From the NCBI GenBank assembly GCA_900539645.1, contig UQCY01000033.1, forward strand, positions 1 to 15,462: 15,462 nt of DNA. Reading direction: 5' to 3'. Source of the stretch: an uncultured Clostridium sp. (lineage in GTDB: Bacteria > Bacillota > Clostridia > Peptostreptococcales > Peptostreptococcaceae). Position numbers and translations under genes: made by a program. The notes under the pieces were generated by a model. It made no database searches. It was not told the DNA's origin and saw only the letters and a program-made list of their open reading frames with translations. How positions within the stretch are numbered: the first letter of the stretch is position 1; each line of letters begins with the position of its first letter. Positions 1 to 15,462 of the stretch are shown piece by piece.

Positions 1-127
1 GTAGTGTATTTTCTTCACCAAAAATAGCCATATACGCCATTATAAATCCCATCATCGCTAAAAATCTAAATGTATTATGTTTAATTTTTCCTATAAATTT
101 ACTCTTTTCATTACTTTTTTTCTTCAA
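1..127 (-). CDS. Partial 5' end of an unidentified membrane-anchored protein (TTG start)
   Basis: The first 42 codons of a gene that runs off the left edge. The start is TTG at 127-125. A TGA lies immediately upstream in frame, and a GGGGG Shine-Dalgarno sits 8 bases before it, so no other in-frame start is possible. The peptide begins with a very basic stretch (MKKKSNEKSKFIGKIKH), followed by a hydrophobic run (residues about 20-36, FRFLAMMGFIMAYMAIF). This looks like an N-terminal membrane anchor or first transmembrane helix with a positive inside end. I do not recognise the family. The terminator at 293-325 separates it from the peptide transporter upstream. The 165-bp leader is extremely AT-rich and I could not pick a convincing promoter in it. 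Confidence 0.55.
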   Translation of the reverse strand, partial: MKKKSNEKSKFIGKIKHNTFRFLAMMGFIMAYMAIFGEENTL

Positions 128-292
128 TCAAATAACCCCCTTTTTTAACACAATGAATATAATAACATATAATTCTTAATTTTTCATTAAAAATATTTAT
201 ATATTTTATATTCTAATCTTCTGAAAAATCATATTCCAAAAGGGAGTTTTATTTTCATCATGACCAATATTTTATTTGCTATTTATGAGCAT

Positions 293-325
293 AAAAAAAC
301 TGCCACACAAATGTGTGACAGTTTT
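293..325 (-). terminator. Rho-independent terminator of the POT transporter gene
   Basis: On the minus strand the stem AAAACTGTCACACA pairs with TGTGTGGCAGTTTT (14 bp with one G-U pair). The loop is only 4-5 bases and a run of seven Ts follows. It lies 46 bases past the stop codon of the peptide transporter and so isolates that gene from the partial gene at the left edge. Confidence 0.9.
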
Positions 326-370
326 CATTATATAAACTTTAAATTTCTAATCTCAATTATAATTCGAAGA

Positions 371-1747
371 TTATTCTCCTGCTGTAAGCATTGCTTCAAG
401 TTTTTTATCGAATACAAGAAGTAATACAGCTGATACTATTAGTATAACTGGTATAGCTATGAATACCTGCATCATACCCATTGATTCCATTATAGTCTGA
501 ACGTATCCTGAAGCTTTTGAAGCGAAGAATGTTGCTAATGTCCAAACACCCATTAATACTGTTAAGTATTTAGCTGGAGCATGTTTAGAAACCATTGAGT
601 TTCCTAGTGGAGAGAAGCACATTTCACCTATAGTCTGGAATACTGTGAATCCCATTAACCATATAACTGAAGCTTTAGCTGTTTCTGGAGCACCAACTCC
701 TCTTGTAAATTCTGCACCTATCATAAATACGAATGCTACACCTAGGAATATAAATCCTAAAGAAACTTTCTGTATCATAGTTAAGTCACCCTGAGGTCTG
801 TTAGATAATTTTGTCCATATAGCAGCCATTACAGGTCCAAGTATTATACAAAGTAATCCATTTAGAGTAGTTTCTATCCATACTGGTGGTACTGCGAAGC
901 TACCAACGTTCATATTTACATATGTATTCATGTAAAGAAGAACTGAAGTAGATGCCTGATAGTAAGCAGTCCAGAATATTATTGTGAATGCAGATATTAT
1001 AATTATTGCTATAACTCTTTTCTTTTCTTCTGAAGTTAAAGGTCTGTTTGATTCTTCTTTAGAAACAACTTTTTCACCTTCTTCTGTATGATGAAGCATT
1101 TTCTGTGGTAATTTACCAGCATCACCTAATACTCTCCATCCTAATACAGCAACTATTGTAGCAACTATCATCATTACTCCTGATAAACCGAAACATTTCT
1201 GGAATCCCTGAACTAAGTTTCCGTTTACAGTTGTAGCAAATGTATTAGCACATAAGTATCCTAATATTAAAGATCCAAAGAATGAACCAACATTTACGAA
1301 TGAATATAATATAGAGAACGCAGAGTCTTTAAGATTATCATCATCATATAATTCCCCAACTAATGCGTTTAACTGTCCTTTAAATAGACCAGTACCTATA
1401 GAAACAACTGCGATTAATACATGTACGTGCATAACAGATGTTGCGAAGTATCCTATAAACCATCCTACTGCCATTATAAGAGCACCTATAACAACACAGT
1501 ATCTAGCTCCTAACCATCTGTCTGATATTACCCCACCTATAACTGGTGCTAGGTAAGTGAAAGCCATTAAGTTAGCCCCGATTATTGCTGCATCAGCAGG
1601 ATCTAACCCAAGACCACCTTCAGCAACAGCTGTAGCTAAGAATAATAATAATAGCGATTTTGATCCGTAGTATGCGAATCTTTCACAAGTGAACACTAGT
1701 CCACAAGCGTATAACCCTTTAGGGTGTTTTGCTGAACTATTTCCCAT
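371..1747 (-). CDS. POT/PTR-family (MFS) oligopeptide transporter
   Basis: A 458-residue inner-membrane carrier of the proton-dependent oligopeptide transporter family, expected to import di- and tripeptides. Visible family marks: CERFAYYG in TM1 (residues 21-28), GGVISDRWLG (71-80), GTGLFKG with the conserved TM4 lysine K123, the FSILYSFVNVGS signature (144-155), FWTAYYQ in TM7 (258-264), and GEMCFSPLG in TM10 with the conserved E375. Hydrophobicity is consistent with 12-14 helices, with a charged loop at about 205-245. The length is a little below the usual 480-500. The first glutamate of the ExxER proton-coupling motif is replaced by Phe19; only E22-R23 remain. The start is supported by AGGAGG at 1757-1762. 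The gene is monocistronic, with its own promoter at about 1846-1875 and terminator at 293-325. Substrate specificity cannot be read from the sequence. Confidence 0.92.
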   Translation of the reverse strand: MGNSSAKHPKGLYACGLVFTCERFAYYGSKSLLLLFLATAVAEGGLGLDPADAAIIGANLMAFTYLAPVIGGVISDRWLGARYCVVIGALIMAVGWFIGYFATSVMHVHVLIAVVSIGTGLFKGQLNALVGELYDDDNLKDSAFSILYSFVNVGSFFGSLILGYLCANTFATTVNGNLVQGFQKCFGLSGVMMIVATIVAVLGWRVLGDAGKLPQKMLHHTEEGEKVVSKEESNRPLTSEEKKRVIAIIIISAFTIIFWTAYYQASTSVLLYMNTYVNMNVGSFAVPPVWIETTLNGLLCIILGPVMAAIWTKLSNRPQGDLTMIQKVSLGFIFLGVAFVFMIGAEFTRGVGAPETAKASVIWLMGFTVFQTIGEMCFSPLGNSMVSKHAPAKYLTVLMGVWTLATFFASKASGYVQTIMESMGMMQVFIAIPVILIVSAVLLLVFDKKLEAMLTAGE

Positions 1748-1773
1748 TTTTGAAATCCTCCTATATTTTTTAT

Positions 1774-1790
1774 AAAAGCATTTTGCTTTT
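1774..1790 (-). promoter_or_regulatory. Small leader hairpin upstream of the POT gene Shine-Dalgarno
   Basis: AAAAGCA-TTT-TGCTTTT is a perfect 7-bp dyad with a 3-base loop, 11 bases upstream of the AGGAGG ribosome-binding site. It is AT-rich and weak. It might affect mRNA stability, or it may be accidental. Confidence 0.3.
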
Positions 1791-1796
1791 CGTATT

Positions 1797-1839
1797 AGTA
1801 GTGACTTTTTATGTAATTTAATTTTCTAAATTTCACTAC
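1797..1839. repeat. Inverted repeat AGTAGTGA...TCACTACT in the POT gene leader
   Basis: The two perfect 8-bp arms, 1797-1804 and 1832-1839, are separated by 27 AT-rich bases. They start at the predicted transcription start region just downstream of the -10 box. It could be an operator or a leader stem-loop. No known regulator motif is recognised. Confidence 0.4.
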
Positions 1840-1845
1840 TTTTTA

Positions 1846-1875
1846 ATTATATAACAATATCTATATATTAATCAA
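1846..1875 (-). promoter_or_regulatory. Predicted sigma-A promoter of the POT transporter
   Basis: On the minus strand, TTGATT (-35, 1870-1875) and TATAAT (-10, 1846-1851) are separated by 18 bases. The -10 is perfect and the -35 matches 4 of 6. The start codon lies about 100 bases downstream, leaving a long AT-rich leader. The rest of the gap to the atp terminator (1876-2017) shows nothing else that I can support. Confidence 0.5.
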
Positions 1876-2017
1876 GTTTTTTGTTATCTTTTTGTTACTT
1901 TTTTCTGACTTTTTTTAAAGTAATCAATATTAAAAAACTATGATATTTAGATTGATTTCCATTTTCTAAACTTACTTTTTGAAAAGTTTATGAACTTTTT
2001 ATGAAATTAAAGAAAAT

Positions 2018-2067
2018 AAAAACCGGTATTTAAAATTTATTATTAAATAAATCTTCAATACCGGTTT
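2018..2067 (-). terminator. Rho-independent terminator of the atp operon
   Basis: The arms AAACCGGTATT and AATACCGGTTT (11-bp perfect stem) flank a 26-base AT-rich loop that can itself partly pair. A T-rich tract follows on the minus strand (TTTTTATTTTC). It starts 9 bases after the atpC stop codon, so the operon ends at atpC and no exon-like remnant of a longer atpC fits between. Confidence 0.88.
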
Positions 2068-2075
2068 ATTTTATT

Positions 2076-2339
2076 CTACTCTACATTTTTAGCCATTTTC
2101 GTAAGAATTACCACATTTTCATATTCAGAACTTATAAATCCACCTGTTGAATATACTAATTCAGTATTCTTATCTAATTTTATTTTTATGTTTCCTTCAA
2201 TTATCTCAGCTGAAAATGGACGTCTATTTCTTAAAATCTGTCTTTCTCCTCCAGTTGTTTTTACTATAACAGAATCTACATCTCCATCATAGAAAGTTTT
2301 ATTTGGAGTAATTATTTTTAAATGTAATGAATTTTCCAT
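2076..2339 (-). CDS. atpC: F1Fo ATP synthase epsilon subunit, short form without C-terminal helical domain
   Basis: Epsilon joins the gamma stalk to the c ring and normally carries an inhibitory C-terminal helical hairpin. I place the start at ATG 2339, which has AGGTGG five bases upstream; a GTG at 2357 would add six residues but lacks its own ribosome-binding site. The product is 87 residues, whereas typical epsilon subunits are about 130-140. The N-terminal beta-sandwich is recognisable (LHLKIITPNKTFYDGDVDSV, the ILRN and PFSAEI segments, VYSTGGFIS, VVILT), and the protein stops right after it. Two near-invariant positions of the GILxxHxP motif are altered: Gln34 for Gly and Arg39 for His. 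The terminator follows at once, so the short form is not explained by a nearby frameshift. It is the last gene of the operon, 31 bases after atpD. Identity is sure; inhibitory activity is doubtful. Confidence 0.9.
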   Translation of the reverse strand: MENSLHLKIITPNKTFYDGDVDSVIVKTTGGERQILRNRRPFSAEIIEGNIKIKLDKNTELVYSTGGFISSEYENVVILTKMAKNVE

Positions 2340-2370
2340 TATTCCACCTGCCTTCACCGACTAGATTTTA

Positions 2371-3780
<1,410 letters not shown>

Positions 3781-4674
3781 TTATTTAAGAGCCTCTGCTC
3801 CACCGGCTATTTCTGTTATTTCCCGTGTTATAGATGACTGTCTTGCTCTATTGTATTCTGCTTCTAATTTATTTAACATTTCATCCGCACTATCTGTTGC
3901 AGACTGCATAGCATTTCTTCTAGAAGCCTGCTCGGAAGCAAAAGATTCTCTTATTCCATTGTACACCTGAGATGCTGTATATTCTGAAATTAATCTTTTG
4001 AAAATAACTTCCGCAGAAGGAAGATACTGTCTTCTTGGCTCTACCTTCTTAGGATTTTTTCTTTTTTCTCTTTCATCTAATTTTTTCTCATCCTGTTTAA
4101 GCATTTCAAGTTCTACTGGGAATAGTCTTTTTTCTCTTACTGTCTGTATAAGAGCTGATCTAAATTTTGTATATATAAAATATATCTCGTCAATTTCTTT
4201 ATCTTCGTATAATTGTATAAGATTTTGAGTTATCTCATGCATCTCATCAAATGCACAGTGTTCTGCGCTTTCTATTTTAAAAGGTATTTCAAATCCTTTT
4301 TTAGTAAAGTACTCGCAAGCCTTTTTACCAACTGGAACAACCATATCCTTTTTTGGATTCCGCAGTTCCATTACAGATTTGAAGATATTTACATTGTATC
4401 CACCAGCAAGACCTCTATCTCCTGCAACAGCTATAAAACATCTTCTTTTAACTTCTCTTTTTTCGACAAATTCTTTACAAGATGATTTTACATCTGCACC
4501 AGTTCTAATCATCATATCGTATAATTCATACGCATATGGTTTTGATCTTTCTGCTTTTTCTCTAGCTTTCATCAATTTAGAAGAAGAAACAAGGTTCATC
4601 GCACTAGTTATCTGTCTAGTACTTTCTATACTTGCCTTTCTTCTTTTTATCTCTTTAGTTCCGACTCCTGCCAT
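3781..4674 (-). CDS. atpG: F1Fo ATP synthase gamma subunit
   Basis: The central rotor stalk of F1, 297 residues. The N-terminal helix (TKEIKRRKASIESTRQITSAMNLVSSSKL) and the C-terminal helix (RNAMQSATDSADEMLNKLEAEYNRARQSSITREITEIAGGAEAL) form the coiled coil that turns inside the alpha3-beta3 ring. AGDRGLAGGYN (84-94) is the conserved globular-domain motif. Residues about 193-216 are a highly charged, Lys/Glu/Arg-rich segment that looks longer than in many relatives and accounts for a length slightly above the usual 285-290. The ATG directly follows the atpA TAA with no gap, and the ribosome-binding site GAGGTG lies inside the end of atpA, so the two are likely translationally coupled. Confidence 0.97.
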   Translation of the reverse strand: MAGVGTKEIKRRKASIESTRQITSAMNLVSSSKLMKAREKAERSKPYAYELYDMMIRTGADVKSSCKEFVEKREVKRRCFIAVAGDRGLAGGYNVNIFKSVMELRNPKKDMVVPVGKKACEYFTKKGFEIPFKIESAEHCAFDEMHEITQNLIQLYEDKEIDEIYFIYTKFRSALIQTVREKRLFPVELEMLKQDEKKLDEREKRKNPKKVEPRRQYLPSAEVIFKRLISEYTASQVYNGIRESFASEQASRRNAMQSATDSADEMLNKLEAEYNRARQSSITREITEIAGGAEALK

Positions 4675-6168
4675 TTATCTCACCTCTTTTTTAAAGTTTT
4701 CTACTAATTCAGTGAGTTCTTTTCCGTAGTCTTCTCCATTAAGAATTTTTTCGTATATACTTGGTTTATTTTTTCTTATATAGAAACATAATTCTTTTTC
4801 AAAATTATGTATTTCGTTTATCTCTACGTCGTCAAATAATCCATTAAGTACAGAGTAAACTGTCACTACCTGTTCTTCAACTGGTAATGGGTTGTGTTCA
4901 TCCTGTTTTAGTATTTCTACTATTCTTTCACCCTGTTCTAGTCTAGCCTTAGTATCTGCATCTAAGTCTGAACCGAACTGAGAGAACGCAGCTAACTCTC
5001 TATACTGAGAATAAGCTAGTTTTAATTCTGATGCTAATTTCTTCATAGATTTTATCTGGGCTGCCCCACCAACTCTCGAAACTGATATACCAGGGTCAAC
5101 TGCTGGTCTTATTCCTGAGTGGAATAATTCAGGCTGAAGATATATCTGTCCATCTGTTATAGATATTACGTTTGTTGGTATGTATGAAGAAACGTCACCT
5201 TCCTGAGTTTCTATGACTGGTATCGCAGTCATTGATCCTCCACCAAGTTCATCTGAAAGTTTTGCAGATCTTTCAAGAAGTCTTGAATGAAGATAGAATA
5301 CATCCCCTGGATAAGCTTCACGTCCTGGTGGTCTTCTTAATAATAAAGACATTTCTCTGTAAGCAACCGCGTGTTTACTTAAATCATCGTATATTATTAA
5401 GACATCTTTTCCCTGATACATGAATTCTTCACCCATTGCAGTACCTGCATATGGTGCTAAGTACTGAAGTGGAGCTGATTCTGACGCTGTAGCAGATACT
5501 ACTATTGTATAGTCCATTGCCCCGTAATCTCTTAGTGAGCTAACTAACTGCGCAACAGTAGATTTTTTCTGTCCTATAGCAACATATATACAGATTATAT
5601 CTTTACCTTTCTGGTTAAGTATTGTATCAGTAAGTATAGATGTTTTACCTGTCTGTTTATCACCTATTACAAGCTCCCTCTGTCCTTTACCTATTGGAAC
5701 CATTGCATCTATTGCCTTTATACCAGTCTGAAGAGGCTGATATACAGATCTTCTATCCATTATTCCTGGAGCTTCTGCCTCTATAGGTCTTGTTTTATCA
5801 GTTTTTATACTTCCTCTTCCATCTATTGGGTTACCTAGAGGATCCACAACTCTACCTATTAGAGCATCTCCTACTGGAACTTCAACTATTTTTCCAGTTC
5901 TTTTAACTATGTCATCTTCTTTTATTCCCTCTTCATCTCCAAGAAGAACTGCCCCGACAGTTTCTTTCTCTAGATTTAGAGCCATCCCATATACTTCACC
6001 TGGGAATTCAAGAAGTTCGCCAGCCATTACATCATCAAGTCCGTAAATACTCGCTATATTGTCACCTACGTTGAATATTTTTCCTGTATCAGATAGCTCG
6101 ACTCTGTTATCGTAGTCTTTTATCTGCCGTCTGATTATCGAACTTATTTCTTCAGGATTTAAACCCAT
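4675..6168 (-). CDS. atpA: F1Fo ATP synthase subunit alpha
   Basis: A 497-residue non-catalytic nucleotide-binding subunit of F1. It shows the P-loop GDKQTGKT (169-176; most species have Arg where this has Lys171), the arginine finger R365 in [10 protein letters not shown] that completes the catalytic site on beta, and the usual C-terminal helical domain. Length and start are normal. GGCGGTGAG precedes the ATG, 18 bases after atpH, and the gene abuts atpG. No unusual feature was found. Confidence 0.98.
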
Positions 6169-6186
6169 ATTCTCACCGCCGTTTCT

Positions 6187-6726
6187 TTATATCATTTTAG
6201 ACAGTTCTTTTTTAAGTCCGTTTATTCTACTTCTTACAGTACCGTCTATTTCTTTATTTTCAATCTTTATAAAGACTCCTCCCATTAAGGACTTGTCTAT
6301 TTTATTTTCTAATTTTACAACTCTACTAAATTTCTTAGACATCTTAGTTTCTAGCTCTTTTATCTCTTTATCAGATAATGGAACTACACTGTAGACTGTA
6401 CCTTTTTCTAGAGTTTTCTTGTCATTTACTAATTTAACAAATCTGTGGTATACATCATCTATATATCTAATTTTTTTTCTATCTATTAGAACCTTTAAGA
6501 AATTTATAAGGTATATATCAGTTGTATCAGAAAAGATTTTTTCGAGAATAGCCTTTTTATCGTCGGCTAATATAAAAGGTGTTTTTAATACATCCGAAAG
6601 ATCCTTATTTTCTTTGATAGTTTTTACAACTTCAGAAAACTGAGCTAAAACCTCGTCTGTAGTTTCAGTTTCTTCAGCTACGTCAAACATAGCTTTTGCA
6701 TATACTGGAGCTGATTCATCTATCAT
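6187..6726 (-). CDS. atpH: F1Fo ATP synthase delta subunit
   Basis: A 179-residue peripheral-stalk subunit (OSCP family) that links the top of F1 to the b dimer. The N-terminal helical domain (SAPVYAKAMFDVAEE, residues 5-19) and the C-terminal segment with SLMGGVFIKIENKEIDGTVRSRI (about 145-167) match the family. Its ATG overlaps the atpF stop in an ATGA arrangement (6723-6726), with AGGAG inside the end of atpF, indicating coupled translation. The length is standard. Confidence 0.96.
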   Translation of the reverse strand: MIDESAPVYAKAMFDVAEETETTDEVLAQFSEVVKTIKENKDLSDVLKTPFILADDKKAILEKIFSDTTDIYLINFLKVLIDRKKIRYIDDVYHRFVKLVNDKKTLEKGTVYSVVPLSDKEIKELETKMSKKFSRVVKLENKIDKSLMGGVFIKIENKEIDGTVRSRINGLKKELSKMI

Positions 6727-7223
6727 ACTACGTCTCCTGTTCTATCTATAAATTCGTCTATCAGTTCTTTATGTTTATCCTTATCTATTTCTTTTTCTAT
6801 TACTTTAGATGCTGCAAGGATAACAAGATCTGACATCTCGTCCTTCATATCGTTCATAGCCCGGATTCTTTCTTCCTCTATTTCTCGTTTTGCTCTTTCC
6901 TTCATTATTTCAGCATCTCGCTTAGCGTCATCTTTAATCATATATGATTTTTCTTTTGCCGCTTCTACTGCTGAATTTATTATATTTCTTCCTTCTTCTT
7001 CTGCTTTTCCAACTTTTTCTTCGTATTCTTTCTTGAAGGCTTCACCTTCTTCTCTTATCTTCTTACCTTCCTGTATATCCATTGCTATATCTTCTTCTCT
7101 AGCTTTTATAACAGCCATAACTGGTTTAAATAAGAGATGTTTAAGTATTAGAAAGATTACAACCGCATTGGCTAGCTGGAAAAAGTATTCGTATGTTAGT
7201 GTTACTAACGGTTTTAATTCCAT
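6723..7223 (-). CDS. atpF: F1Fo ATP synthase subunit b
   Basis: The 166-residue stator stalk subunit. One N-terminal membrane helix (about residues 12-33, FFQLANAVVIFLILKHLLFKP) is followed by a long, highly charged coiled coil rich in Lys and Glu that reaches delta at the top of F1. A strong AAAGGAGGG ribosome-binding site lies 8 bases before the ATG. The 54-base gap after atpE holds only a small CTGTG/CACAG dyad (7240-7257). There is one b gene, as in most non-photosynthetic bacteria, so the stalk should be a homodimer. Confidence 0.96.
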   Translation of the reverse strand: MELKPLVTLTYEYFFQLANAVVIFLILKHLLFKPVMAVIKAREEDIAMDIQEGKKIREEGEAFKKEYEEKVGKAEEEGRNIINSAVEAAKEKSYMIKDDAKRDAEIMKERAKREIEEERIRAMNDMKDEMSDLVILAASKVIEKEIDKDKHKELIDEFIDRTGDVV

Positions 7224-7277
7224 ACTCTATCCCTCCTTTCTGTGAATATCATCACAGTATAACACGTTATTTCCGTC

Positions 7278-7529
7278 CTATATCCAAGGATTAACGAATA
7301 TAAGAATTATCGCTATTATAAGTCCGTATATTGCTGTTGATTCTGCTATGGCAGCCCCAACTATGAATGAAGACATTATTTCACTCTTTGCTTCTGGCTG
7401 GTTACCAACTGCTTCTGCTAGTTTACCTGCTGCGTAACCCTGTCCTAAACCTGCTCCTATACCTGTAAATACTGCTATACCTGCTCCTATTGCTGATCCT
7501 GCAACTGCTATTGCTGTAGCCATATCCAT
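7278..7529 (-). CDS. atpE: F1Fo ATP synthase subunit c with Na+-type ligand set
   Basis: An 83-residue, two-helix proteolipid forming the rotor ring in the membrane. Helix 1 has the glycine-rich GIGAGLGQGYAAGK (23-36), the polar loop is NQP (43-45), and helix 2 carries AESTAIY (62-68) with the ion-binding Glu63. Gln30, Glu63, Ser64, Thr65 and Tyr68 correspond to the Na+ ligands and supporting residues defined in the Ilyobacter tartaricus c ring; that ring's Val63, which binds through its main chain, is Ile61 here. Proton-type rings usually lack the Gln and Ser-Thr pair, so Na+ coupling is the best inference. The ribosome-binding site GAGGAGG is very strong and is preceded by an AU-rich leader, fitting the need for about ten copies per complex. 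Confidence 0.97.
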   Translation of the reverse strand: MDMATAIAVAGSAIGAGIAVFTGIGAGLGQGYAAGKLAEAVGNQPEAKSEIMSSFIVGAAIAESTAIYGLIIAIILIFVNPWI

Positions 7530-7544
7530 AATAATTTCCTCCTC

Positions 7545-7557
7545 TGGCCTTTTGCCA
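7545..7557 (-). promoter_or_regulatory. Mini hairpin next to the atpE ribosome-binding site
   Basis: TGGC-AAAAG-GCCA on the minus strand abuts the GAGGAGG of atpE. It is a 4-bp stem that could keep the site exposed or be accidental. Between it and atpB lie some 60 bases of almost pure A/T, resembling the U-rich translation enhancer known upstream of E. coli atpE. Confidence 0.3.
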
Positions 7558-7621
7558 TTTAATATTTTTTAATTTAATTTATTTTAATTTTTACTATATT
7601 TTTACTTTACACACTCTACTT

Positions 7622-7650
7622 TATAAACTTAGCATCTTTTCTAAGTTATA
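7622..7650 (-). promoter_or_regulatory. Intercistronic stem-loop between atpB and atpE
   Basis: The arms TATAACTTAG and CTAAGTTTATA pair with a single bulged base around the loop AAAAGATG, 5 bases after the atpB stop. No T-run follows, so it is not a canonical terminator. The 126-base atpB-atpE gap is by far the largest in the operon. A hairpin here may mark RNA processing or protect the atpB 3' end. Confidence 0.5.
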
Positions 7651-7655
7651 AAGTT

Positions 7656-8420
7656 CTAAGCATTTTTTAATTTTTTCTTTTCTAACTTTCTAGCTTCTCT
7701 TTTCTTTAATAGACTAATGTCTACTGAATTACTTATAAATACCATTGTAAGCATTATAAATATAAATGCCTGTATAGAACCTGCAAATATATCAAAGTAT
7801 AAATGAAGTGGTACCGGCACTAAAAACTGTGCAAACGGAATACTAACTCCTGGTATTAATTCAGATACAAAAGCCATAAGTCTGTAGAATAACATCATTA
7901 TAAGCGTACCACCCATTATATTACCAAATGGACGGAAACTTAATGAAATAGGTCTAGCTATTTCTCCAACTAAGTTTATTGGTAATAGTACCGGTGTCGG
8001 TTCAATCATGTCTTTGAACACTGCGCCACCATTAAATCTAATAGATACTGAATATATAAGTATTACTGTTATTGTAGATAATGCTAATGTAGTATCTAAA
8101 TCGACTGTAGGCGACCTCAGACCGATTAACGGAACTAGGTTCGAACATAAGAAGAATAAGAATAAACTCCCTATATAAGGAACTATATTTGGTATTCTTT
8201 CTACCAATTCTTTCCCCATTGTTGTCTCGACTAAGTTATAAAGTTTGAGAACAGCATATTCGAGGAATACCTGAACTTTACTCTCTGGTACCTTCTTTAA
8301 ATTTCTTGTTAGAAGATACGATGCTATAGCAAGACCTGCTATTATAATCCAACTTACTATAACTGTTTCGCTGAGCCTAAATCCATTAATATTTACCAAC
8401 CATCTCGCCTGTGTATTCAT
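7656..8420 (-). CDS. atpB: F1Fo ATP synthase subunit a (ion channel)
   Basis: A 254-residue polytopic membrane subunit providing the ion half-channels beside the c ring. About five helices are visible. The essential arginine (R210 of E. coli) is R163 in SLSFRPFGN (159-167), and the C-terminal helix carries the IQAFIFIMLTMVFI signature (216-229). The residue after the arginine is Pro164 where nearly all relatives I know have Leu; the codons read CGT CCA, so a single T-to-C change would account for it. The tail is unusually lysine-rich (KKREARKLEKKKLKNA). AAAGGAGG inside the last codons of atpI supports the start. Confidence 0.95.
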   Translation of the reverse strand: MNTQARWLVNINGFRLSETVIVSWIIIAGLAIASYLLTRNLKKVPESKVQVFLEYAVLKLYNLVETTMGKELVERIPNIVPYIGSLFLFFLCSNLVPLIGLRSPTVDLDTTLALSTITVILIYSVSIRFNGGAVFKDMIEPTPVLLPINLVGEIARPISLSFRPFGNIMGGTLIMMLFYRLMAFVSELIPGVSIPFAQFLVPVPLHLYFDIFAGSIQAFIFIMLTMVFISNSVDISLLKKREARKLEKKKLKNA

Positions 8421-8424
8421 CTAG

Positions 8425-8856
8425 CTATGCCTCCTTTCTCGTAAAAATAGCTGATATCTTCTGCATCATTAAGACTACCTGTGTACTTAAAAGTCCAAGA
8501 GCTGCAGTAAACATACTAACTGAATCCAATTTTGCCCCAATAAATAAGATAACGGCATATATTGCGAATCTAAAGAAATATCCTCCCGCAAATTTTAATT
8601 GGACTACAGTCTTCCCTGCTTGATTCACCAAACTCTCCGTTGATGATACAAGCATACAAAAGTTAAATATTGAGGCTGCACTTCCTATTATTAGGCCAAG
8701 AACAGCCGCACTATCCAACTTTAAAACGCTACCTATAAGAGTCTCTCTGTCTATAGACATCTTTGAACAAACCATTAAAGCTATAATAACAACTATATCA
8801 AAAATAATGATTCCTTTTATCACTGCTTTAACCTGATTTTTCAACATATTATCCAT
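8425..8856 (-). CDS. atpI: ATP synthase subunit I (AtpI-like)
   Basis: A small membrane protein encoded first in the operon; family members assist c-ring or Fo assembly and are not part of the finished enzyme. From the ATG at 8856 the product is 143 residues with about four hydrophobic helices (roughly 13-30, 50-70, 90-106, 112-130). I prefer this start because AAAAGGGGATG lies 10 bases upstream and because the frame's upstream TTG (8904) overlaps the predicted -10 box. ATG 8895 is a possible alternative adding 13 residues. Sequence conservation in this family is low, so the call rests on position, size and topology. Confidence 0.8.
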   Translation of the reverse strand: MDNMLKNQVKAVIKGIIIFDIVVIIALMVCSKMSIDRETLIGSVLKLDSAAVLGLIIGSAASIFNFCMLVSSTESLVNQAGKTVVQLKFAGGYFFRFAIYAVILFIGAKLDSVSMFTAALGLLSTQVVLMMQKISAIFTRKEA

Positions 8857-8903
8857 CAGATCACATCCCCTTTTTGAAATTATTTTTTCATCCATATTAC
8901 TCA

Positions 8904-8932
8904 ATTATACCCTATTAACAGGATAAGTAACA
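8904..8932 (-). promoter_or_regulatory. Possible promoter of the atp operon
   Basis: A perfect TATAAT lies at 8904-8909, and 17 bases upstream is a poor -35 (TGTTAC, 3-4 of 6). It is the best promoter-like site between the dCMP deaminase terminator and atpI and would start transcription about 40 bases before the chosen atpI start. Confidence 0.4.
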
Positions 8933-9307
8933 TAGTATATTATTTATTTTTATGTATTTGTTTAAAATAATAAATTATTTTTTGTTTATTATTAATTTAA
9001 ACTATTGATTTTTTACAATAAAGCTATATTTTTTAATCATATTGATATCTGAATAATTAGAAAGATGCATGATTTTCGCCTTTGTATTTTGTATATTTTT
9101 AAAAACTAACTCATTATAGAATATTTTTTTAAAGTTATCAACCTTATTTTTATCTTTTAACAAAATTTCAATTTAAATTCTTCTAGCTCTAAATTTCTTC
9201 ACATAAAATCTCTCAATACTAGTTATTCCAACGCTTGTAAAAAAACATTTTCCTGAATTTTACGTTCAAAAAGCACTATTGATAATCTTTTTTTATAGTA
9301 AAATAAT
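8910..9307 (-). other. AT-rich intergenic gap with a possible decayed reading frame
   Basis: This long stretch has no intact gene. On the minus strand an open frame of 56 codons ends at TAG 9002-9004 (its tail reads MHLSNYSDINMIKKYSFIVKNQ). Upstream in the same frame, after a single TAA at 9173-9175, it continues for about 28 more codons (TSVGITSIERFYVKKFRARRI). A further 18 codons (KKRLSIVLFERKIQENVF) run on beyond a seven-T tract if one frame shift is allowed. No credible ribosome-binding site precedes any piece, and I do not recognise the peptide. It may be a gene remnant or chance openness in A-rich sequence. Confidence 0.2.
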
Positions 9308-9351
9308 AAAAAAAAATACCCCGAAAAACTATTTTTCATAATTTCTCGGGT
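9308..9351 (-). terminator. Rho-independent terminator of the dCMP deaminase gene
   Basis: On the minus strand CCCGAGAAA pairs with TTTTTCGGG (9 bp, one G-U), with a 13-base loop and then GTA and nine Ts. It starts 6-7 bases after the stop codon. It isolates this gene from the atp operon. Confidence 0.85.
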
Positions 9352-9357
9352 TTGTTT

Positions 9358-9807
9358 TTACAATTCTTCGGGATATTTTATCATTTCTACTCCAGCTTCC
9401 TCTAATAATTGTGTTGAAAGGTCATCTGGATAATCTCCCTTGTATATTATTTTTTTGATTCCTGCGTTTATACACATCTTCGCACATAGTACACAAGGTC
9501 TAGTAGTTACGTATAGAGTAGCATCTTTTATGCTAACCCCATTGTATGCAGCCTGTATTATTGCATTTTGTTCTGCATGTAGTGCTCTACAAAGCTCGTG
9601 TCTTTCTCCAGAAGGTATATGCATCTGTTCCCTTTTACAACCTATATTTTGACAATGTTCTAAGTTTTTAGGAGCTCCATTGTATCCTGTAGTAAGTATC
9701 TGTTTGTCTTTTACAATTATAGCCCCAACCTGTCTTCTTATACAAGTCGATCTCTTTTTCACTACCTCGGCAATTTCCATAAAATATTCGTCCCATGAAG
9801 GTCTCAT
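9358..9807 (-). CDS. comEB: Deoxycytidylate (dCMP) deaminase
   Basis: A 149-residue cytosolic zinc enzyme converting dCMP to dUMP, the substrate of thymidylate synthase. The catalytic HAE motif is H77-A78-E79 within HAEQNAI, and the second zinc half is PCVLC (C105, C108). The segment [23 protein letters not shown] (51-73) is the structural-zinc and substrate region typical of dCMP deaminases rather than of cytidine deaminases. Its closest named relative is ComEB of Bacillus; no competence genes are nearby, so a housekeeping nucleotide role is likelier. The start is supported by AAAGGAGTG. Gln codons here include several CAA, unlike the atp genes. It sits between two terminators and is probably monocistronic. 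Confidence 0.93.
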
Positions 9808-9893
9808 CTTAAATCACTCCTTTTTAAGCAATTATTATATATATATAATGAAACTTTATATTTTAATTATGCAATTTTTATTCAAAAATATTT

Positions 9894-9935
9894 ATAAAAA
9901 AACTGCCTCTTTATACAAGATTATAAAAAGGCAGT
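9894..9935 (-). terminator. Rho-independent terminator of rpiB
   Basis: ACTGCCTTTTTAT pairs with ATAAAGAGGCAGT (13 bp with one G-U) across the loop AATCTTGT, followed by seven Ts on the minus strand. It lies 25 bases beyond the rpiB stop. The 86 bases from here to comEB are very AT-rich and must hold the comEB promoter, but I could not choose a convincing pair of boxes. Confidence 0.88.
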
Positions 9936-9959
9936 AGTTATCTCTAAATCAAAATGGAT

Positions 9960-10412
9960 TTATTTTGTGTATTTTTTTTCTATATCCATTAACATATCTA
10001 CTCTAGTCTGATGTCTTCCACCTTCGAATTCTGTATCAAGGTATGCATCTACTATGTCAAGTGCTAGTCCTGGTCCAACTACTCTTCCACCCATTGCAAG
10101 CATGTTTGCATTGTTATGAGCTTTAGTCATTCTAGCTGAGAAAGTATCACTTACAACAGCACATCTTATTCCAGGAACTTTGTTAGCTGCTAAAGATATA
10201 CCTATTCCAGTTCCGCATACTAATATTCCGCAGTCAGCTTCTCCGTTAGCAACTTTAAGAGCTGCAGCTTCTCCATATTCTGGGTAGTTTACTGAATCTG
10301 TTGCATTGTTAGTTCCAAGATCCATTACTTCTATCCCTCTTTTTTCAAGGTGAGCTATTATAGCCATTTTTAAATCGTATCCACCGTGGTCACAAGCTAA
10401 TGCTATTTTCAT
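9960..10412 (-). CDS. rpiB: Ribose-5-phosphate isomerase B (RpiB/LacAB family)
   Basis: A 150-residue cytosolic enzyme interconverting ribose 5-phosphate and ribulose 5-phosphate in the pentose phosphate pathway. Family motifs: ACDHGGYDLK (6-15), CGTGIGIS with the catalytic Cys66 (66-73), the AHNNANMLAMGGR segment with His99 (98-110) and GGRHQTRVD (131-139). The start is ATG 10412, because GGAGG sits 8 bases ahead of it; an ATG at 10427 overlaps that site and has none of its own. An allose- or galactose-6-phosphate isomerase is possible within the family, but the solitary position beside housekeeping genes favours RpiB. It has its own extended -10 promoter and a terminator. Confidence 0.93.
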   Translation of the reverse strand: MKIALACDHGGYDLKMAIIAHLEKRGIEVMDLGTNNATDSVNYPEYGEAAALKVANGEADCGILVCGTGIGISLAANKVPGIRCAVVSDTFSARMTKAHNNANMLAMGGRVVGPGLALDIVDAYLDTEFEGGRHQTRVDMLMDIEKKYTK

Positions 10413-10449
10413 TTTAAAATCCTCCATCTCGCTTTAATTTTTACGTTTT

Positions 10450-10467
10450 ATGTCCATTTATGAACAT
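10450..10467. repeat. Near-perfect 18-bp dyad in the rpiB leader
   Basis: ATGTCCAT-TT-ATGAACAT is symmetric except for one position. It lies between the predicted -10 box and the rpiB ribosome-binding site, where an operator would sit. No regulator is recognised. Confidence 0.35.
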
Positions 10468-10476
10468 TTCTATTAT

Positions 10477-10485
10477 ATTATAACA
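10477..10485 (-). promoter_or_regulatory. Extended -10 promoter of rpiB
   Basis: TGTTATAAT on the minus strand combines a perfect TATAAT (10477-10482) with the TGn extension (10483-10485). The -35 region (TGTACT at 17-base spacing) is poor, as is usual for extended -10 promoters. Confidence 0.5.
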
Positions 10486-10539
10486 TTAATCTATTTTATA
10501 GTACATTACAAACTAGCTAAATAGTATATATTATAATCT

Positions 10540-11586
10540 TTAATTCGCGTCTATTATTCTATAAGCAGCAGATTTTAAAAGTCTATTCATTATCGCCTGA
10601 CCAACTCCACAACTTTCAAAGCATACTGAGTAGACTATATCCATTTTTGCTTCGTCCATTTTTATAAGGGCATCAAAAAGATTTGATGCTACTTCATCGT
10701 AATCTTTTCCTAAGTCTACAACATAATCGCATTCAAATTTATCCACGTCTTTACTCATACACATTATCCCTGTTTTTTTATTTTCTGCATGATTTTTTCT
10801 AGATAATTCATTCATTTTTGTAATCACATTATTTTCTTCACCTTTTACTATATATACCTGTGCATTAGGTGAGTAGTGTTTATACTTCATACCGGGAGCT
10901 TTTGCTTTTATATTGTCCTCTTTTTTAGTTAAAGATGGATCTATACTAACTTCTCCAAGTACTTCCTCTAACATCTCTTTTGTGATACTTCCTGGTCTAA
11001 GTATCATAGGCTTATCCTCACTAAAATCTACAACCGTAGACTCTAGTCCAAAGTCACAATCTCCGCCCATAATTATTCCAGATACTCTTCCACTCATCTC
11101 TTTAACAACGTGTTCTGCCTTTGTTGGAGATGGTCTACCAGATATATTTGCAGATGGAGCTGCAATCTGAGTTTTTGACTCTCTTATAAGTGCATTGGCA
11201 ATTTTATTTGAAGGCATTCTAATTGCTACTGTTGAAAGCCCTCCACTAGTAACATTTGGAACAATTTCCTTCTTTTTTAGTATTATAGTAAGTGGTCCTG
11301 GCCAAAAGTTTTCCATAGCTTTTTTAGCCTTTTCACCAACTTCAAGCGCTATTTTATCTACTTCTTCTATGTCAGCTATATGGACTATCAGTGGATTATC
11401 ACTAGGACGACCTTTTGCTACATATATTTTCTTAGCTGCATCTTCATCCATAGCGTTTGCACCTAGTCCGTACACAGTTTCAGTTGGAAATATTACAGTT
11501 TCTCCATTTTTTATTTTTTCAGCCATTTCTCTTATTATGCCCATATCTATATTATTTTCATCTACTTTTTTTATAACTGTTTCCAT
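10540..11586 (-). CDS. Threonylcarbamoyl-AMP synthase, two-domain Sua5 type
   Basis: Makes threonylcarbamoyl-AMP from threonine, bicarbonate and ATP, the first step of the t6A37 modification of ANN-decoding tRNAs. At 348 residues it is the long Sua5/YwlC form, not the short TsaC. The YrdC domain covers about 15-205 with PTETVYGLGA (34-43), the KGRP loop (59-62), FWPGPLT (94-100) and PSANISG (144-150). The linker APGMKYKHYSP (230-240) closes over the active site, and a Sua5 domain with the end motif GVGQAIMNRLLKSA follows. The ribosome-binding site GGTGG is weaker than in neighbouring genes. No clear terminator lies between it and rpiB. Upstream is an unusual palindrome and the interrupted ZIP gene. 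Confidence 0.94.
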   Translation of the reverse strand: METVIKKVDENNIDMGIIREMAEKIKNGETVIFPTETVYGLGANAMDEDAAKKIYVAKGRPSDNPLIVHIADIEEVDKIALEVGEKAKKAMENFWPGPLTIILKKKEIVPNVTSGGLSTVAIRMPSNKIANALIRESKTQIAAPSANISGRPSPTKAEHVVKEMSGRVSGIIMGGDCDFGLESTVVDFSEDKPMILRPGSITKEMLEEVLGEVSIDPSLTKKEDNIKAKAPGMKYKHYSPNAQVYIVKGEENNVITKMNELSRKNHAENKKTGIMCMSKDVDKFECDYVVDLGKDYDEVASNLFDALIKMDEAKMDIVYSVCFESCGVGQAIMNRLLKSAAYRIIDAN

Positions 11587-11618
11587 AAATCCACCGACCT
11601 TCTTTTTATAAATTATTT

Positions 11619-11671
11619 TCTATAATCTAGTTATAACTAATATACAATATTTTCCATAACTAGACTATAGA
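11619..11671. repeat. Long imperfect palindrome between the ZIP gene and Sua5
   Basis: The 16-base arms TCTATAATCTAGTTAT (11619-11634) and ATAACTAGACTATAGA (11656-11671) match at 15 of 16 positions, the exception able to form G-U in one strand's RNA. The loop is 21 bases. Neither strand has a T-run after the stem, so it is not an ordinary terminator. It could be a small mobile palindromic element, an RNA-processing hairpin or a regulatory stem. Confidence 0.6.
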
Positions 11672-11709
11672 TTTTAGATTTAATTCCTCCTACTAAGCTA
11701 TAGATTTTA
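11665..11709. repeat. 12-bp direct repeat CTATAGATTTTA
   Basis: Identical copies at 11665-11676 and 11698-11709 overlap, respectively, the right arm of the palindrome and the last codons of the ZIP reading frame. Between them on the minus strand is an orphan AGGAGG (11684-11689) with no start codon after it. The layout suggests a local duplication or a deleted gene start. Confidence 0.4.
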
Positions 11710-12376
11710 CTATAACAATCCCAAGCATAACACCAATTATTGTATATATACTCTTAGACTCCGGTATCATCTCGTCCATAACAACGTACATCATCATACC
11801 TGCTGCTATAGAAAGCAATACTCATGTTATTGCGGAGAAAATTTCTCCAAAACTAGAACCAATAAAACATCCAATCGCTATTGGAAGTCCTGCTATCATA
11901 GACATTATTACAGCTCTCTTTCCACTTGCCTTATTGCATATAAATCCAATTGCAAGAGCCAATCCTTCTGGCAAATTATGCATACCTATTGCCATAGCCA
12001 TAGCAATTCCCCGTTTAGGTTCTGCTAAAAAAGTAGTCCCTATTGCAAGTCCCTCTGGTAAATTATGCATTATTATACTCATAAGCATTAAATATCCAGA
12101 AGAATTTTCTCCATTGATTTTAACTTTTTCTTTAAGAATTTTTGTAGCTAATGCCCCTAAGAATATCAATATAACCGCATACACAATCCCTATTCCCTCG
12201 ATGGCCTCCTCAATTAAATCAAACATTACCAACGAAAGCATTATTCCTCCTGATAATCCCATAAAAAAGCTCATATATTTTGAAGCCTTTTCATTGAATA
12301 ATACAGCGAGAATTCCTCCTAATCCTGTGCCGATTACACCGACAATTAAACCAATTAGAGTGATTTTTAAAATCAA
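11693..12376 (-). pseudogene. ZIP-family divalent metal transporter interrupted by an in-frame TGA
   Basis: ZIP proteins import zinc, iron or manganese across the cytoplasmic membrane. The start is TTG 12376, with GAGGAGG 10 bases upstream; longer starts would only add a polar, unrelated stretch that overlaps a terminator. Both metal-site helices are present, MHNLPEGLAIG and MHNLPEGLALAIG, each with the HNxPEG motif. At codon 185 a TGA (11824-11822) stops the frame after FGEIFSAIT. The same frame then continues without a break for 42 codons (VLLSIAAGMMMYVVMDEMIPES and onward) to a TAG at 11693-11695, and those residues are a normal ZIP C-terminus with the MIPES motif. The simplest reading is a recent nonsense change or a base-call error. 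Without readthrough the product would be 184 residues, lacking the last helices. Confidence 0.85.
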
Positions 12377-12424
12377 AATCCCTGCGCCTCCTCTTTTTTC
12401 TCTAAACACAATTAAAAAGTATTT

Positions 12425-12470
12425 AAAAAAGTGTCTTATCCTCGAATTCAATTCAATAATAAGACACTTT
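12425..12470 (-). terminator. Terminator after prfA
   Basis: AAAGTGTCTTAT and ATAAGACACTTT form a perfect 12-bp stem with a 19-base loop, followed by further Ts on the minus strand (TTTTTTAAA). It ends the DUF1385-prmC-prfA transcript. The ZIP gene must therefore have its own promoter within the next 50 bases, where none is obvious. Confidence 0.85.
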
Positions 12471-12518
12471 CTCATTCATTTTTATACTAAATCTGATATA
12501 TGATAATCATACTTTAAA

Positions 12519-13586
12519 TTAGTTTATAGCAGCCATTTTTTCAGTCTGGTCAACTGTTATTAAAGCATCTATCATTTCGTCTATGTCACCATCAAGGAAT
12601 GAATCTAATTTGTATAAAGTAAGATTTATTCTGTGGTCACTTATTCTTCCCTGAGGGAAGTTGTAAGTTCTTATTCTTTCAGATCTATCTCCTGTACCAA
12701 CCTGGCTCTTTCTTTCCGCAGATATTTCTTTCTGCTGGTCTGCAAGAGCTCTGTCGTATAATCTAGCTTTTAAAACTTTCATAGCTTTTTCTTTATTTTT
12801 AAGCTGTGATTTTTCGTCCTGACATGATACAACTTCTCCTGTTGGAATATGTGTTATTCTTACTGCAGAGTCAGTAGTATTGACACACTGTCCACCGTTT
12901 CCAGAAGCTCTGAAAACGTCTATTCTTATATCATTGTCATTTATTTCTACTTCAACATCTTCTACTTCTGGTAATACGGCAACTGTTGCTGTAGAAGTAT
13001 GTATTCTTCCTCCTGATTCAGTAGAAGGTATTCTCTGAACTCTATGAACTCCTGATTCGTATTTTAATCTAGAATATGCACCTTTACCTTTTATCATGAA
13101 TGAAACTTCTTTGTATCCACCAACACCAGTTTCATTTGAACTTAGCATAGATACCTTCCATCCTTTTCTTTCTGCATATCTTGAGTACATTCTTAATAAG
13201 TCTCCTGCGAATAGAGCTGCTTCATCTCCACCAGCTCCACCTCTTATTTCGACTATAACGTTCTTTTCATCGTTAGGGTCCTTTGGTACAAGAAGTATTT
13301 TTAATTCTTCTTCTAATGGTTCTACTTTTGATTCCATATCAGATAATTCCATTTTAGCTAATTCTCTTAATTCTTCATCTGATTCTTCCTGAAGTATTTC
13401 TTTTGATTCAGCTATACTATCTAATACAGCTTTATATTCTCTGTACTTCATTATGATTGGCTCTAAATCTGCATGTTCTTTCATGTATTTCTGCCAAACT
13501 TTCTGATCGTTTATTATTTCTGGATCAGATATTTTTTCTGTTAAATCTTTATATGTATCCTCTAATACACCTAGTTTTTTAAGCAT
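12519..13586 (-). CDS. prfA: Peptide chain release factor 1 (RF1)
   Basis: Reads UAA and UAG stop codons and triggers peptide release on the ribosome. The 355 residues include the N-terminal helical domain, [15 protein letters not shown] (116-130), the stop-codon recognition tripeptide PST (187-189; the PxT form marks RF1, SPF would mark RF2) and the catalytic GGQ (231-233) in [16 protein letters not shown]. The residue after GGQ is Cys, where many bacteria have His. GAGGTG nine bases upstream supports the start. The glutamine of GGQ is the substrate of PrmC, encoded directly upstream with a 52-base gap. Confidence 0.97.
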
Positions 13587-13638
13587 TTATATATTCACCT
13601 CGTCAATTATTCTCGTATTCCGTCAATTTATCATTATA

Positions 13639-14505
13639 TCACAGTTTTGTGCCTATAACAACTCTATCAATGCCCGGTAAATCCTTCTTTGTGTATATTT
13701 TTTCATATCCACAGTTTTTCATTATGTTAGAAACATCTTCTGCCTGGTCGTGTCCTACTTCATAAGCAAGTATTCCACCCTTTTTTAGGTATTTTACAGA
13801 TCCTTCAGTTATACTTCTGTAAAAGTCTAGTCCATCATCTCCACCTTCTAACGCATTATAGGGCTCATAATCCTTGACCTGAGTGTGAAGTGTTGGTATT
13901 ACATCTTTTCTTATATAAGGAGGATTAGACACGATTATATCCAATTTCTCCCCACTTCCTTCTAATGCTGAGAACACGTCTGATTTTATAAATTCAGTTC
14001 TACTTTCTACACCATTAGATATTGCGTTTTTAGCGCCTATTTCTAAAGCTATATCCGATATATCAAATGATTTTACAAAACTATTCTTTATATAGTATGC
14101 AAGGCTAACTGTTATAGCCCCTGAGCCAGTTCCTATATCTAATATATCTATTCTATCTTTTTGTTTATATTCTTCCTCTGAGCAAATTCTTATAATCTCA
14201 TCTACCAATGTTTCCGTATCTGGTCTAGGAATTAAAACCCCTTCCTGTACATAGAAATCAAGCCCCATAAACTCTCTATTTCCAATTATATAAGCCACAG
14301 GTCTACCTGATTTTCTCTCTTCAGCCATTTTTTCGATTTCAGCTAATTTTTTTTCGTCTATCTCTTTATTAAGATTCATATGTAAATATAACTTATCTAC
14401 ATCTCCAAGAGCTTTCATAAGCATTACTTCTATATCCAATCTAGGACTATCACTTATTTCAGAAAACTCATCTGTATATTTTATAATAATATCTCTTATA
14501 GTCAT
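13639..14505 (-). CDS. prmC: Release factor glutamine N5-methyltransferase
   Basis: Methylates the GGQ glutamine of RF1 and RF2 using S-adenosylmethionine. In the 288-residue product a helical N-terminal domain precedes PRPDTE (94-99), the SAM loop DIGTGSGA (123-130) and the catalytic NPPY (194-197), which binds the target glutamine. I chose ATG 14505, preceded by AAAGGTG six bases away; the ATG at 14520 is part of that site and has no ribosome-binding site of its own. It lies between DUF1385 (34-base gap) and prfA, its substrate gene, in one transcript. It ends in TGA, showing that TGA is a normal stop in this organism. Confidence 0.95.
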   Translation of the reverse strand: MTIRDIIIKYTDEFSEISDSPRLDIEVMLMKALGDVDKLYLHMNLNKEIDEKKLAEIEKMAEERKSGRPVAYIIGNREFMGLDFYVQEGVLIPRPDTETLVDEIIRICSEEEYKQKDRIDILDIGTGSGAITVSLAYYIKNSFVKSFDISDIALEIGAKNAISNGVESRTEFIKSDVFSALEGSGEKLDIIVSNPPYIRKDVIPTLHTQVKDYEPYNALEGGDDGLDFYRSITEGSVKYLKKGGILAYEVGHDQAEDVSNIMKNCGYEKIYTKKDLPGIDRVVIGTKL

Positions 14506-14539
14506 CGAATCACCTTTCATTTTTTACAAGTTAATTCTT

Positions 14540-15433
14540 TTATATTACAGCTTTTAATGAAGCTATTGCTACTTCTAGCTGTTCATCATCTGGTTCTTTA
14601 GTAGTTAAGTACTGTAGCATCATACCTGGATAGGCTATTATTCTTGTAAAACCATTATCATATTTCCCAAGTAGTCTTATTATTTCATATGCTATTCCAG
14701 CTACTACTGGTATACAAATTATTCTCATTAACACCCTCATCAATGGATTTGGCCATCCAAAGAATGCAAATAGTATTATAGAAGTCGCCATTACTATAAA
14801 TAAGAAGTTTGTACCACATCTAGGATGTAGTCTTTTAAATTCTCTAGCATTTTCAACTGTAAGCTCTTTACCACTTTCATAACAGTGTATACTCTTGTGC
14901 TCTGCTCCATGATACATGAATACACGCTGGATATCCTTCATTAAGGAAATTGAAGCAATATATGCCAAAAAAATCATCATTCGGATGACACCTTCAATCA
15001 GCGCCAGTGCCACATGGGATGTAATAAATTTCTGAAAAATCAAAGAAAGATAATATGGCAGAATCATAAAGATTCCAATGGCAAGTACAAAGGAAAATGC
15101 AACAGTAATACCCATTTCTGCTTTTTCTTTTTTTGCTGCTGCCTCTTTTGATAATTCTTTCTTTTTTGCTTTGGTGTCTTCCTCATCCTCTTCAAAGAAA
15201 GATGCGGAATATGTAAGCGTTGATATTCCAAGTGCCAAAGACTCCACAAAACTTAACACTCCACGTAAAATTGGAATGTTCCGCAATGTCTTGTTTTTAA
15301 TCAGTCCATAATACTCTTTGGTATCAACGGTAATCTCTCCATCCGGCTTCCGGACTGCCACGGCGTACTTTTCCTTATTTTTCATCATTACGCCTTCTAA
15401 AACTGCCTGTCCACCGATTCCCGAATATTTCAT
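14540..15433 (-). CDS. DUF1385 (YqhQ-like) membrane protein, mosaic gene
   Basis: The family is conserved in Firmicutes, is often encoded near prmC-prfA and has no well-established function known to me. The 297 residues begin with the family signature GIGGQAVLEGVMM (5-17), carry a lysine/glutamate-rich loop (81-106), several membrane helices (about 108-134, 143-163, 210-225, 235-253), the conserved FMYHGAEHKSIHCYE (172-186) and HPRCGTNF (203-210). The reading frame is intact. Codon use changes sharply within the conserved motif. Residues 1-170 use ATT/ATC for 17 of 18 isoleucines and CGN for all arginines. Residues 181-297 use ATA for all but one isoleucine and AGA or AGG for arginine, like the rest of the window. 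The start is supported by AGAGG. Confidence 0.9.
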   Translation of the reverse strand: MKYSGIGGQAVLEGVMMKNKEKYAVAVRKPDGEITVDTKEYYGLIKNKTLRNIPILRGVLSFVESLALGISTLTYSASFFEEDEEDTKAKKKELSKEAAAKKEKAEMGITVAFSFVLAIGIFMILPYYLSLIFQKFITSHVALALIEGVIRMMIFLAYIASISLMKDIQRVFMYHGAEHKSIHCYESGKELTVENAREFKRLHPRCGTNFLFIVMATSIILFAFFGWPNPLMRVLMRIICIPVVAGIAYEIIRLLGKYDNGFTRIIAYPGMMLQYLTTKEPDDEQLEVAIASLKAVI

Positions 15434-15462
15434 GTGTGACCTCTCTTCCTGTTTCTAAAAAA
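14924..15462. other. Segment of foreign base and codon usage at the right edge
   Basis: From about 14924 to the window end the coding strand uses CGG, CCG, GCC, ACC, ATC and AAG codons that are rare elsewhere in the window. The encoded DUF1385 N-terminus reads like a Lachnospiraceae protein from memory. The join lies in a stretch encoding a conserved motif, where either homologous recombination or mis-assembly between two organisms could happen. Confidence 0.7.

Follow-up and report, generated by a model that had tools for sequence, protein, structure and literature searches.

A DUF1385 gene of two bacterial sources at the end of a Peptacetobacter-like contig, most probably an inter-species assembly chimera

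Sequence common to more than one species is described, in PMC7299287 and likewise in PMC8171044, as a cause of chimeric contigs in de Bruijn assemblies. Mosaic genes also arise naturally by homologous recombination, in which case ancestry switches in frame at homologous positions. Both processes bear on the gene analysed here, a member of the DUF1385 family of membrane proteins (PF07136; YqhQ in one source), which lies at the right-hand end of a metagenome contig of 15,462 bases. This whole stretch is referred to as the window.

A DUF1385 protein with two kinds of relatives

The DUF1385 mosaic is real as sequence in the contig. The reading frame runs uninterrupted across the join for 297 codons on the minus strand (14540-15433), and the composite protein matches PF07136 with 316 bits, above the gathering score of 22.1. 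Codon usage changes abruptly between the two halves of the gene: isoleucine is encoded by 13 ATT, 4 ATC and 1 ATA in residues 1-170 and by 13 ATA and 1 ATT in residues 181-297 (Fisher p = 5e-7), and arginine by 2 CGG, 2 CGT and 1 CGA in the former and 6 AGA and 1 AGG in the latter (Fisher p = 0.0013). A recount returned exactly the numbers on which the original prediction of a two-source gene had been built. That prediction also had the frame open through the switch, as the single 297-codon ORF bears out, and placed the switch within 14890-14926, at the motif MYHGAEHK; alignment to relatives of both parents narrows this interval to 14895-14915. Codon usage by itself had pinpointed what is very probably an inter-family chimera with an accuracy of a few dozen bases.

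The two halves of the protein (residues 1-170 and residues 181-297) were searched separately for relatives. Among the best 120 of 7,995 matches to residues 1-170, the closest other match is P0002 (306 aa), with 99% identity, and the first named match is a Lachnospiraceae MAG protein, with 70%; the closest named relatives of P0002 itself, among the matches listed, are also Lachnospiraceae. Among the best 120 of 7,987 matches to residues 181-297, the top match is the native protein P0121 (299 aa), with 100% identity, followed by a group of matches at 88-99%, and the named proteins include those of Peptacetobacter sp. (89%), Peptacetobacter hominis (85%) and Clostridioides (about 79-83%). P0121 and P0002 are each a full-length protein of their own kind, and they are 42% identical over P0002 residues 1-170. 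The top matches thus differ between the halves, P0002 for one and P0121 for the other, instead of converging on one protein, the outcome that the original prediction had named as counting against itself. Its guess of a Lachnospiraceae-like source was correct.

Two genomes meeting in a 21-base block

At the DNA level, the window consists of two stretches, each matching, and colinear with, a different genome. G001, the nearest genome found, has 67% of the window's sampled 31-letter words in common with it and aligns to window 6-15001 in one BLASTN alignment at 94.3% identity. Its identity per 20-base step is 20/20 at 14800-14899 and drops to 10-17/20 at 14900-14999; the final 86 bases of the alignment are only diverged homologous gene sequence and do not come from the same genome. 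The other match is L004 (ONAD01000037.1, uncultured Lachnospiraceae bacterium RUG115), a contig of genome G032, which covers window 14895-15462, up to the last base, at 95.8% identity and takes in the 29 bases preceding the start codon. About 4% of sites differ from L004 in this 568-bp stretch. The genus label Peptacetobacter for the main part of the contig is suggested by the named protein matches. The features are as follows.

6-14915, no strand assigned: Peptacetobacter-like part of the contig, colinear with G001 (one BLASTN alignment, window 6-15001, 94.3%)
14540-15433, minus strand: DUF1385 (PF07136) ORF of 297 aa, composite of two species (Pfam match 316 bits)
14540-14894, minus strand: gene portion on the 3' side of the 21-nt block, Peptacetobacter-like, comprising the end of codon 180 and everything after it as far as the stop codon (residues 181-297 are 100% identical to P0121; DNA aligns to G001)
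14895-14915, minus strand: 21-nt block spanning YHGAEHK, identical in G001 and with one mismatch in the Lachnospiraceae MAG (GGG for GGA, window 14906)
14916-15462, minus strand: Lachnospiraceae-derived tail, made up of the 5' part of the gene and the 29 bases before the start codon (95.8% nucleotide identity to L004; 99% protein identity to P0002)

A wider foreign region was considered and rejected, since window 6-15001 aligns to G001 in one piece. Within that alignment, identity is patchy: it reaches 99.7-100% per 300 bases at 6601-7500, which by position we take to be ATP synthase subunits b and c, then stands at 77-89% at 7501-9000, and further 300-base steps with 100% identity start at 2401, 3601 and 9901. 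Recombination between close relatives or a strain-mixed assembly could produce this pattern. In the same part of the window, an ORF of 93 aa follows the ATP synthase beta gene (2076-2357, minus strand); we take it to resemble a short epsilon subunit, seemingly without the usual C-terminal helical part.

The matches to G001 and L004 overlap by exactly 21 bases, window 14895-14915, and it is within this block that the parent of the DNA identity changes. Both G001 and G003 carry the block unchanged; in G002, which is of the same genus, no site comes within one mismatch of it, and G032 differs at a single base, having G in place of A at a third codon position (window 14906). An exact copy was found in 5 of 95 loci, all of them G001 or its relatives and none from Lachnospiraceae, and later loci were alike. 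With a divergence from L004 of about 4%, about one difference per 21 bases is expected between these strains, and GGA at the variable codon is present in relatives such as L005 and L006. The A at window 14906 could also derive from the Peptacetobacter side, in which case the true overlap would be 9-11 nt; were GGG present in the true parent, an overlap of that length would be too short for a 21-base node. A word length of 21 is the default smallest one of MEGAHIT and metaSPAdes and the usual minimum for common short-read assemblers.

Outside the block, the longest other run common to the Lachnospiraceae-side stretch and the 17.7-kb G001 locus is 14 nt (gene strand only), and for 22 Lachnospiraceae-type genes, hand-picked from 80 loci, the longest run in common with the native gene of G001 does not exceed 15 nt. 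Between G001 and L004, the longest common run anywhere in the gene is 12 nt. Elsewhere, a 29-nt exact match to L004 at window 12874-12902, in a gene that we take to be prfA-like, is longer than the block at the join, yet no join occurs there; it marks another site where both species could be mis-joined.

The exact Lachnospiraceae parent was sought among 61 genomes, G032 and 60 relatives, and only G032 proved close over the whole stretch (96%); none of the 60 relatives exceeds 71% over the whole foreign stretch, short pieces scoring higher. In a class-wide draw of 391 genomes, nothing matched the foreign stretch at E 1e-20, which is uninformative, as the draw contained no genome known to match. 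No viral contig contained the 32-base pattern in which A or G was allowed at the variable site, as expected for a chromosomal gene.

The foreign tail measures 548-568 bp, its start depending on the position of the switch inside 14895-14915, and it reaches the window's last base; no return to Peptacetobacter-like DNA, that is, no second junction, was seen up to the window end. The window ends 29 bases before the DUF1385 start codon and, judged by eye on the L004 sequence, stops in the T-run that follows a hairpin-like sequence lying upstream of the gene, which is a plausible graph break.

Occurrence of the fusion in other assemblies

The composite fusion is absent from the other matches listed for either half (best 120 of 7,995 for the N half, best 120 of 7,987 for the C half), and the window protein forms a cluster of its own, with one sequence from one contig whose 15,462 bases equal the window's length. 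In 119 of the 119 other C-half matches listed (best 120 of 7,987), the N half is nearer the native type than P0002, although P0157, being partial, is of little help here. Among the matches listed, the junction is absent from independent assemblies of either species, and no independent strain or isolate with the same junction, the mark of a natural recombinant, was found.

The N half itself recurs in other company. In six of the 30 N-half entries examined (P0003-P0008), an N half with 99% identity is followed by a divergent C part, only 44-73% identical to that of P0002; each entry consists of a single sequence from a single contig, 1.2 to 17 kb long. The modelled break falls after P0002 residue 188 in four of them, just past the MYHGAEHK motif, and after residues 212 and 220 in the other two. 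These entries look as if a single species had been mis-joined repeatedly at conserved stretches. In P0005 (489 aa, on a 16,994-base contig), the Lachnospiraceae N half runs in frame into apparently unrelated sequence after about residue 220, and this protein is probably another chimera. P0006 and P0007 have an N-half variant in common, C halves that are 87% identical and a switch near the MYHGAEHK motif, and the C half of P0008 is 82-83% identical to theirs. P0006 and P0007 may belong to a genuine mosaic lineage or may be mis-joins that involved related partners; because these two and P0008 resemble each other, the six examples may not all be independent mis-joins. The case suggests that mis-joins can recur in different metagenomes at a conserved motif of one gene.

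Origin of the composite gene and comparison with known systems

The original prediction had left two options side by side, homologous replacement from a distant donor or a chimeric contig. The pair as such is supported, and the evidence favours the technical option over the replacement. From sequence comparison, we consider it very probable that the contig is an inter-species assembly chimera created by a mis-join in the assembly graph; a technical origin of the mosaic in the broader sense, counting graph mis-join and library chimera together, is slightly more probable still. Four observations favour a technical origin: the tail extends to the window end, the join block is short and near-identical, no second example of the fusion occurs among the matches listed, and the same N half recurs in other chimera-like proteins, each from a single contig. 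Its odds are slightly lowered by the absence of the exact block from the Lachnospiraceae loci compared and by the resemblance among some of the chimera-like relatives.

In the proposed mechanism, a Peptacetobacter-like contig would have been extended through a short stretch in the conserved motif MYHGAEHK that would be identical, or almost so, in the DUF1385 orthologue of a Lachnospiraceae species from the same sample. From there, the assembler would have left the graph node by the wrong branch and added about 550 bp of Lachnospiraceae DNA, as far as the next break in the graph, a little upstream of the gene. The frame would remain open because the switch falls at homologous positions. We infer that the exact 21 bases are present in the Lachnospiraceae parent strain, that both species were present in one sample and that the link was made by a de Bruijn graph mis-join, not by a library chimera.

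Natural intragenic homologous recombination, in which the 5' part of the gene would have entered a Peptacetobacter lineage from Lachnospiraceae through a crossover in the conserved motif, appears highly improbable. Such an event would account for a join in frame at homologous positions and for a composite that is still a full DUF1385 protein (316 bits), but G001 and L004 have at most 12 nt in common anywhere in the gene. Also in its favour, both loci have, about 2 kb downstream, a gene that matches the prfA-like gene of the window; against it, Peptacetobacter-like DNA does not reappear before the window ends. Other proteins with the same N half do switch near the motif, and two of them look related, but the fusion of the window is missing in 119 of the 119 other listed C-half matches, and an established natural recombinant would be expected in other assemblies. 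There is little chance that the window records a recent event in which Lachnospiraceae DNA took the place of the 5' half of a chromosomal Peptacetobacter gene for a membrane protein, with the conserved motif of about 20 bases as a recurrent exchange point.

A library or amplification chimera, produced by template switching or ligation and not by an assembly graph error, is a shade less likely again. It would work with an overlap of 9-11 nt if the parent shares with G032 the GGG at window 14906, but the joins near the same motif in other contigs fit shared-word mis-joins better, and a rare chimeric molecule is seldom deep enough to enter a contig. Natural codon heterogeneity inside one native gene, consistent with the open frame and with nothing further, is rejected as virtually impossible, given the existence of full-length native proteins of both kinds, which depart from the window in opposite halves.

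The graph mis-join remains the preferred reading, and its practical consequence is one of quality control: the window from about 14.9 kb to its end should be trimmed from any Peptacetobacter analysis, and the composite should not be read as a hybrid gene, nor its DUF1385 product accepted as a real protein sequence.

Among known systems, the locus most resembles the chimeric contigs that arise from k-mers shared in metagenome de Bruijn graphs, having two sources, a join in a short conserved stretch of a gene and a foreign piece that runs to the contig end. It differs in that its sources belong to different families, so that the shared stretch is at most 21 nt, and it may not be exact in the Lachnospiraceae parent. 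The composite and both native proteins match the DUF1385 family, although the composite is not among the other matches listed. With natural mosaic genes formed by homologous recombination, the locus has in common the in-frame switch of ancestry at homologous positions; unlike them, it shows no recurrence among the matches listed and no far junction, and its two sources have little common DNA through which to recombine.
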